64,000 nucleotides of DNA from Arthrobacter sp. 260 (GTDB lineage Bacteria; Actinomycetota; Actinomycetes; Actinomycetales; Micrococcaceae). The DNA is taken from assembly GCF_013116745.1 (NCBI RefSeq), contig NZ_JABFOE010000011.1, positions 62,001 through 126,000 on the forward strand, in the 5' to 3' direction. The position numbers were made by a program, and so were the translations under genes. Below, piece by piece: positions 43,581 through 44,426 of this stretch (position 1 is the first letter of the stretch; every line of letters begins with the position of its first letter). Under the pieces are notes generated by a model. It was not told the origin of the DNA. It saw nothing but the letters and a program-made list of their open reading frames with translations, and ran no database searches.

Positions 43581-43628
43581 GTATTTTTTCTCCTCGACCG
43601 AAAGGCTTTGTGCGCCTTTGATGCGATC

Positions 43629-43644
43629 ACCAGGTGTTCCTGGT
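43629..43644 (-). promoter_or_regulatory. Small inverted repeat upstream of livK
   Basis: ACCAGG (43629-43634) and CCTGGT (43639-43644) are perfect arms with a four-base loop, 49 bases before the livK start. It may be an operator or a leader hairpin. Confidence 0.35.
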
Positions 43645-43761
43645 ATGTAGAAAAGCTAATGCAAAAATGTGTCGAAACTAAGCAATTCCGGTCACATCCT
43701 TGTAACGCTCGCCACAAAAGGATCGAAACCCCTGCCGAATCAACAGCTTCGGGAGGGTCAG

Positions 43762-43837
43762 TGGTGCCCCAGGTCAGACTCGAACTGACACTGAACAGAT
43801 TTTAAGTCTGGTGCCTCTGCCATTGGGCTACTGGGGC
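43762..43837 (-). tRNA. tRNA with UAA anticodon (tRNA-Leu by anticodon), class I shape
   Basis: A full cloverleaf of 76 bases including an encoded CCA: acceptor arms GCCCCAG and CTGGGGC pair perfectly, the T arm is GTCAG-TTCGAGT-CTGAC, the D arm has GCC/GGC with a GG-containing loop, and the anticodon loop is CTTAAAA, giving UAA at 43802-43804 (leucine UUA codon). The variable region is only five bases (TCAGT), whereas bacterial tRNA-Leu normally has a long variable arm. One anticodon-stem pair (C-U) is mismatched. It is a confident tRNA-like gene; its charging identity is less sure. Confidence 0.85.
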
Positions 43838-43904
43838 GGTAACGGGCTGATCGTCCCCTCCAGAATACGTGATCCTCCAGTACCCCGGGGGAGCCACCGC
43901 GTGC

Positions 43905-44426
43905 TCACAGCCGTGAGAACGGATCGGCGTAGACAAACTCGCCGACAGGAATCGTGACGCCACCGATTGCCCGAACCATGAAGTAGTCGCCCCAGGCCGG
44001 GTCGGGGGCCGCAACCCCGAGCCCCGTCGCAGGCTGGAACCCAAACCGGTGATAGAACCCCGGATCGCCGAGCAACGCGATCGATGTCTCTCCGAGCGCC
44101 TCCGCCCGACGGAGTGACTCGACCATCAGCGCCGATCCCACTCCGTGCCCCTGGGATGCGGGCAGCACCCCGATGGGTCCCAACCCCAGGGAGGGTACCG
44201 CCCCGATCCGTGCCCTCGTCGTGATGACGTAGCCGACCACCACGTCGCACACCGTGGCAACCACCGAAAGATCCGGTACATAGTCTGCACCGGCCAGCAA
44301 CTCACGGGTAAGACCCACTTCAACCGGCTCGGCGGAAGGGTCCGACGGAACCCGGAACGCAATGGCCAGCAGGCCGAAAATCTGTTGACGGTCGGCCGGG
44401 GTCTCCGAACGGATGGTGAGGCTCAT
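43905..44426 (-). CDS. GNAT family N-acetyltransferase
   Basis: The 173-residue protein has the GNAT acetyl-CoA loop LPASQGHGVGSALMVESL near residue 92, a first strand LTIRSETPADRQQIFGLL, and the YhbS-like ending LLGDPGFYHRFGFQPATGLG. Its substrate is unknown. It lies downstream of ndh on the same strand but 188 bases away, so it may have its own promoter. Confidence 0.92.
   Translation of the reverse strand: MSLTIRSETPADRQQIFGLLAIAFRVPSDPSAEPVEVGLTRELLAGADYVPDLSVVATVCDVVVGYVITTRARIGAVPSLGLGPIGVLPASQGHGVGSALMVESLRRAEALGETSIALLGDPGFYHRFGFQPATGLGVAAPDPAWGDYFMVRAIGGVTIPVGEFVYADPFSRL

Follow-up and report, generated by a model that had tools for sequence, protein, structure and literature searches.

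A short-armed tRNA-Leu(UAA) as the probable resident UUA reader of an Arthrobacter lineage

The sole tRNA gene found by ARAGORN in the window (the whole stretch of 64,000 nucleotides of the Arthrobacter sp. 260 genome that was analysed) encodes a tRNA-Leu(UAA) with the short variable region of a class I tRNA. This tRNA combines an unusual structure with an ordinary function: it is the resident UUA-reading leucine tRNA of its lineage, and a structural exception to the generalization that bacterial tRNA-Leu is class II. Very probably the organism reads UUA with this ordinary leucine tRNA alone, charged with leucine by a single LeuRS, and we infer that it is transcribed, charged by this enzyme and used by the ribosome. 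Comparative sequence analysis points to its short-armed body as a widespread and conserved type of bacterial leucine tRNA, and in many actinobacteria it is the normal form.

In the available text of PMC7609411 and PMC9976931 tRNA-Leu is grouped with tRNA-Ser and tRNA-Tyr as long-armed class II tRNAs, and the available text of PMC4033280 calls bacterial tRNA genes 'surprisingly uniform'. No description of class I tRNA-Leu as a general actinobacterial feature was found among the papers listed by searches of an open-access library. Short-armed tRNA-Leu genes are already annotated in GenBank (e.g. in phage FelixO1), and have therefore been in plain sight. The interpretation given in an earlier note made without database searches (the sequence-only reading) is partly supported by the results presented here.

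Structure of the gene and the tRNA inventory of the genome

The gene comprises 76 bases with an encoded CCA (43762..43837, minus strand, on which all features given below also lie). It is recognized by ARAGORN, by the Rfam tRNA model RF00005 (58.9 bits, against a gathering score of 29) and by R1, a covariance model of the class I type, with 88.5 bits, the sequence being part of the R1 training set; the next own tRNA under R1 is Arg(UCU) with 62.1 bits. The acceptor stem has seven pairs, and the discriminator is A73 (43765..43765), as it is in all 70 distinct class I Leu(UAA) sequences considered below. ARAGORN places the anticodon at position 34, and the sequence of positions 34-36 is UAA (43802..43804). 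The anticodon arm (43795..43811) contains a C27·U43 mismatch at what is the least kept pair of the fold, being unpaired in 7 of 58 aligned rows. Comparison with the D arms of all 48 own tRNAs delineates a D arm of the form GCCC AAUGGCAGA GGC (43813..43828), with a three-pair stem, an unpaired C13·A22, A14, A15, G18G19, A20a and G21. The variable region UCAGU (positions 44-48; 43790..43794) places U48 opposite A15, an A-U combination seen at 15-48 in 57 of the 58 aligned sequences. With five bases, it falls in the range of 4-5 bases typical of class I and does not form the long variable arm that marks bacterial tRNA-Leu as class II. Positions 13 and 22, at the end of the D stem, are usually paired in class I tRNAs, a class I feature that the window tRNA lacks. 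A simple consensus scan of 43600-44000 found no sigma-70-like promoter or terminator. The sequence-only reading had described a 76-base tRNA(UAA) with encoded CCA, a short class I variable region and one anticodon-stem mismatch, and ARAGORN, the Rfam model and the sequence bear out this description, the mismatch being C27·U43.

The assembly (3.92 Mb in 193 contigs; listed completeness 100%, contamination 0.04%) contains 48 tRNA genes, all of which were read with ARAGORN, and a UAA anticodon occurs in one of them, namely the window gene. Among the five own leucine tRNAs those with the anticodons CAA, TAG, CAG and GAG are class II, and the UAA tRNA alone is class I. It had been suggested from the sequence that a normal class II tRNA-Leu(UAA) might exist as well, with the window tRNA as a second, non-canonical UUA reader. 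In a MAG from another phylum (G326), a class I UAA gene does occur together with a match of class II length, but nothing in the present genome supports such an arrangement: the window gene is the only UAA gene among the 48 own tRNAs of an assembly with the listed completeness and contamination given above, and it is therefore not a second reader. This option, ruled out by the tRNA inventory of the 193-contig draft, retains a practically negligible probability.

Leucine determinants and the meaning of UUA

Leucine identity in E. coli resides in A73, the A15-U48 pair, G18G19 and A20a, and the long arm, which the sequence-only reading had regarded as an identity element, is dispensable for the E. 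coli LeuRS, as far as the available text of PMC9976931 describes it. All of these determinants are present in the window tRNA. The combination of A73, A14 and A15-U48 is found in 10 of the 48 own tRNAs, and was dropped as a leucine marker because five of these are non-leucine tRNAs, namely Ala(UGC), Arg(ACG), Arg(UCU), Gln(UUG) and Lys(CUU). An unpaired 13·22 was also rejected as a marker, since it recurs in the own Cys, three Ser and Tyr tRNAs; among own class I tRNAs it is present, besides the window tRNA, only in Cys. A20a-G21-A22 is found in all five own leucine tRNAs and in none of the 43 others, and the D loop of the window tRNA is thus of the leucine type. A single LeuRS frame scores above the family cut-off (965.6 bits over two pieces), with seven further matches below it. 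This LeuRS would charge the window tRNA with leucine, and the class I body would suffice given the discriminator and the D-loop and hinge elements, since the E. coli enzyme reads these and not the long arm.

To examine the meaning of UUA, TTA codons were masked in ORFs from the window and from the corresponding regions in five relatives, and the aligned residues were collected from reciprocal best hits. With ORFs defined by a simple rule and with residues from several relatives that are not independent, leucine accounts for 46 of the 73 residues (63%) aligned to TTA at 29 sites, the next most frequent residue being valine with 8; the sites are few because UUA is rare. The same procedure yields leucine for 198 of 253 residues (78%) at CTA, 1349 of 1647 at CTT and 876 of 1074 at TTG (82% for both), isoleucine for 112 of 188 at ATA and serine for 599 of 1013 at TCA. 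The leucine share at TTA, drawn from its 29 sites, is lower than that at CTA, CTT or TTG. This indirect test suggests that UUA behaves as a leucine codon in the genus, though a somewhat less conserved one than the other leucine codons.

These data also bear on the proposal, raised in the sequence-only reading, that the window tRNA is charged with some other amino acid, for which arginine and serine would be candidates, UUA then being recoded. The class I body, the 27 of 73 residues aligned to TTA that are not leucine, and the position of Arg(UCU) as the nearest own tRNA by plain identity (0.73, followed by Arg(CCU) and Leu(CAA), both at 0.65, over positions outside the variable region and anticodon) could be taken in its favor. 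However, leucine is far the commonest residue at UUA sites, and the window tRNA has neither the class II arm nor the G73 of the own serine tRNAs. Arginine identity in E. coli depends on A20 and C35, which the C20 and A35 of the window tRNA do not fit, and the leucine-type D loop likewise speaks against recoding. The residues aligned to TTA codons led us to reject recoding, which is very unlikely, and charging with another amino acid finds no support. Both the determinants and the predominance of leucine at UUA sites favor the other option entertained from the sequence, namely a leucine tRNA that lacks the usual long arm.

Of the 19168 codons in 58 window ORFs, 7 are UUA; with 7 of 1892 leucine codons, UUA is the rarest leucine codon in these ORFs. 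In Streptomyces, the low level of the bldA tRNA gates genes that bear UUA codons, and the rarity of UUA in the window might be seen as a sign that here too an ordinary leucine tRNA doubles as a gate on UUA-bearing genes through its low level. The window tRNA shares with bldA the status of sole UUA reader but not the class II body, which is also that of the UAA genes of the Streptomyces-like family. Moreover, the rarity of UUA may simply stem from GC content, and no tested feature ties the window tRNA to development. Such a regulatory function is very unlikely, and an ordinary UUA-reading leucine tRNA remains the preferred reading.

Conservation, spread and origin of the class I leucine tRNAs

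A BLAST search of 38 genomes with the window tRNA recovers a copy in all 24 from the genus (own included), and ARAGORN reads every one of these copies as Leu(taa); of the 14 others, which belong to the same order, 6 have a match. In a survey of these 14 genomes with a pattern for UAA tRNAs of either class, the UAA gene is of class I length in 12, and of class II length in G026 and G036. In G026 the roles are swapped, with a class I tRNA-Leu(CAA) and a class II tRNA-Leu(UAA) (L075, L094). The copy in a named Arthrobacter record (L248) is identical to those of three genus members, which points to probable kinship of the organism with Arthrobacter. The locus was also compared in five relatives from the genus, as the sequence-only reading had advised, and its place is kept in all five: as in the window, the tRNA lies between an NADH-dehydrogenase-like gene (matched over 98 residues only in G008) and a LivJ-like gene. 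It has the same strand as its neighbors in three of these relatives and the opposite strand in G021 (L190) and G004 (L194), and co-transcription with the neighbors is therefore not conserved. In the latter two genomes the tRNA is inverted relative to its neighbors with its place kept. The whole-genome scan, which that reading had named as able to refute its suspicion of a non-canonical tRNA, together with the comparison of related genomes identifies the window gene as the conserved ordinary tRNA-Leu(UAA) of its group.

Searches with the window tRNA by BLAST or with anticodon/T-loop patterns produced 70 distinct class I Leu(UAA) sequences. C13·A22 and C12-G23 are present in all 70, and A9 in 64, whereas class II UAA genes have G12-C23 and G9 (14 of 14). 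C13·A22 and G21 are found in each of the 64 sequences recovered only by patterns, and the set of A73, A14, A15-U48 and A20a in 63 of these 64, or in 69 of 70 when the BLAST copies are included. In an alignment of 58 class I sequences, with the window tRNA as the first row, 99.3% of cells form standard pairs, and 219 cells are changed on both sides, whereas 500 shuffles give a mean of 44.9. Given this strong covariation the fold is no chance match, and the class I tRNA-Leu is one coherent tRNA family under selection. A tRNA-Leu of the same type adjoins an integrase on a Tsukamurella plasmid, and one might accordingly suspect that the window gene is a tRNA-like relic or attachment site that is unused in translation. 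This is extremely unlikely in view of the compensatory changes throughout the stems, the conservation of the locus in the genus, and the fact that this is the sole UAA gene while UUA codons are in use (the 7 of 19168 codons in 58 window ORFs noted above).

Beyond the order, a class-wide sample of 295 genomes was scanned with a pattern that constrains part of the anticodon loop and the T loop but neither the D arm nor the variable region. Among the matches listed and the 58 genomes re-searched, the UAA gene is of class I length in many families and of class II length in others, including four Streptomyces-like genomes (family f31); in family f30 no tRNA-like match was recognized by eye in the pattern search. 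The pattern-only loci, some of them hand-picked to cover families, were read by ARAGORN as 64 distinct class I UAA genes, 4 genes whose variable region has 7-9 bases, and 6 class II genes. Intermediate between the two classes are two leucine UAA tRNAs of family f24 (L162, L163), whose variable regions have 7 and 8 bases. In families f16 and f36 the tRNA-Leu(UAA) genes L108:1487-1564 and L143:1471-1548, which have a variable region of 9 bases and a D arm of a different kind, are nearly identical to each other, and this suggests a recent transfer.

A class I UAA pattern with a fixed D arm matched at least 119 stretches of named genomes. Among the 80 listed, 79 of which are called Leu(taa) by ARAGORN, are records from Gordonia, Nocardia, Rhodococcus, Mycobacterium, Corynebacterium, Microbacterium, Arthrobacter, Cellulomonas, Amycolatopsis, Streptosporangium and others. 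Also among these 80 are MAGs labelled Acidimicrobiaceae or Acidimicrobiales, Planctomycetota, Rokuibacteriota, Deltaproteobacteria and Acidobacteria, where the labels of single contigs may be wrong. In the phylum of a Deltaproteobacteria MAG (99 genomes), the rows judged tRNA-like by eye among the matches listed are of class II length except for that of the MAG itself. The Rokubacteria-labelled MAG G326 (L328, L331) has two Gly-Cys tRNA pairs; a class I Leu(UAA) gene comes after one of them and the match of class II length after the other, and this double arrangement may reflect a strain mixture.

The R1 model extends the family to other anticodons. Short-armed leucine genes outside its training set score 68.5 to 89.5 bits, with two exceptions (62.1 and 62.4 bits) in which the variable region has 9 bases and the D arm is of another kind, and no class II UAA gene exceeds 64.9 bits. 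Of 396 sampled Actinomycetota genomes, 127 have an R1 match at E <= 1e-15, with stricter filters and for any anticodon, and 269 have none. All 38 match sites that were read, hand-chosen to cover families and second copies, are tRNA-Leu genes of 74-79 bases as called (22 CAA, 10 UAA and 6 UAG). In the Mycobacterium-like G254 (45 tRNAs), a reading of eight genes of class II length and two R1 matches gives class II leucine tRNAs for GAG, TAG and CAG and class I tRNAs for UAA and CAA; this fits a remark in the available text of PMC11541572 that tRNA-Leu-2, -3 and -5 of M. tuberculosis have long variable loops. In the Streptomyces-like G157 (66 tRNAs), a reading of ten genes of class II length and one R1 match gives a class II UAA gene, and the CAA gene found, next to a pyruvate-kinase-like ORF, is class I. 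A class I tRNA-Leu(CAA) of a Streptomyces-like genome (L405:1569-1644) lies between pyruvate-kinase-like and response-regulator-like ORFs, their functions being judged from sequence.

Short-armed leucine tRNAs are also carried by phage FelixO1, Pseudomonas phage 16Q and a Tsukamurella plasmid. Among 50,697 phage records, 428 show some match to the window tRNA, and two of these were read; hits in plasmids are few (4 of 72,556 records). On the Tsukamurella plasmid a class I tRNA-Leu(CAA) (L336:3001-3077) adjoins the site-specific integrase, with no annotated feature at that place. A Pyrinomonadaceae-labelled contig (L282:74-4667) packs 21 tRNA genes into about 4.6 kb; among them are short-armed leucine tRNAs with the anticodons TAG, AAG, CAA and TAA, and this array looks mobile or phage-borne.

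Phylogenetic trees over 60 shared positions offer two views of the origin of this body. FastTree, with a midpoint root, places 16 class II leucine tRNAs inside a group of 32 (support 0.851), the other members listed being 15 class I leucine tRNAs, whereas IQ-TREE sets the class II leucine tRNAs apart as a separate group (support 99); neither tree unites all 21 class I leucine tRNAs in one clade. The two programs thus disagree on whether the long arm was lost or the short-armed body descends from another class I tRNA, and by plain identity the nearest own tRNA is Arg(UCU). There is perhaps an even chance that bacterial leucine tRNAs comprise two lineages, of which the class I lineage (with the hinge C13·A22, A20a-G21 and A15-U48) reads UUA, UUG or CUA, is the resident reader of at least one of these codons in much of Actinomycetota, occurs in a few other phyla and also travels on phages and plasmids, genomes having repeatedly exchanged class I and class II readers of the same codon.

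Comparison with known leucine tRNAs

The presence of a resident short-armed tRNA-Leu across most of an order's sampled families, and across many families of a phylum, would provide a natural confirmation of the biochemical result that LeuRS is independent of the arm. It also bears on tRNA annotation by isotype models, on enzymes and toxins that sort tRNAs by their arm, and on UUA-based regulation, the last because UUA is read by a class I tRNA in many families related to that of the class II bldA-like gene.

Streptomyces bldA is likewise a UAA leucine tRNA, and the Streptomyces-like copy L403 has A73, A14, A15-U48 and A20a-G21-A22. However, it has a class II body, in keeping with the class II length in the four Streptomyces-like genomes (84 bases as called in G157), and L403 has G9 and G12-C23 where the class I set mostly has A9 and always C12-G23. 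The D loop of this bldA-like class II UAA gene (L403:21-104) has one G where others have G18G19 (AATGCAGA). The E. coli tRNA-Leu isoacceptors share with the window tRNA the LeuRS determinants A73, A15-U48, G18G19 and A20a listed in the available text of PMC9976931, but have the long variable arm that is missing from it. Human mitochondrial tRNA-Leu(UUR) also lacks a long variable arm, and A73 and A14 are important in it according to the same partial source (PMC9976931); it is, however, served by an organellar LeuRS, whereas the window tRNA is a full bacterial cloverleaf in a bacterial genome. A tRNA-Leu(UAG) from a transferred Mycobacterium tRNA cluster combines a leucine anticodon with a short variable loop, but is an extra isoacceptor beside the normal one, as far as the available text of PMC6582537 goes, while the window tRNA is the sole UUA reader. 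Finally, the tRNA-Leu genes of phage FelixO1, which read UUA and UUG, resemble the window gene in their short variable region (7 bases in the UAA gene) and in the D-loop string GGCAGA; they differ from it in being phage-borne, in GC content (0.43 and 0.47 vs 0.55) and in their R1 scores (68.5 and 72.4 bits vs 88.5 for the window gene).
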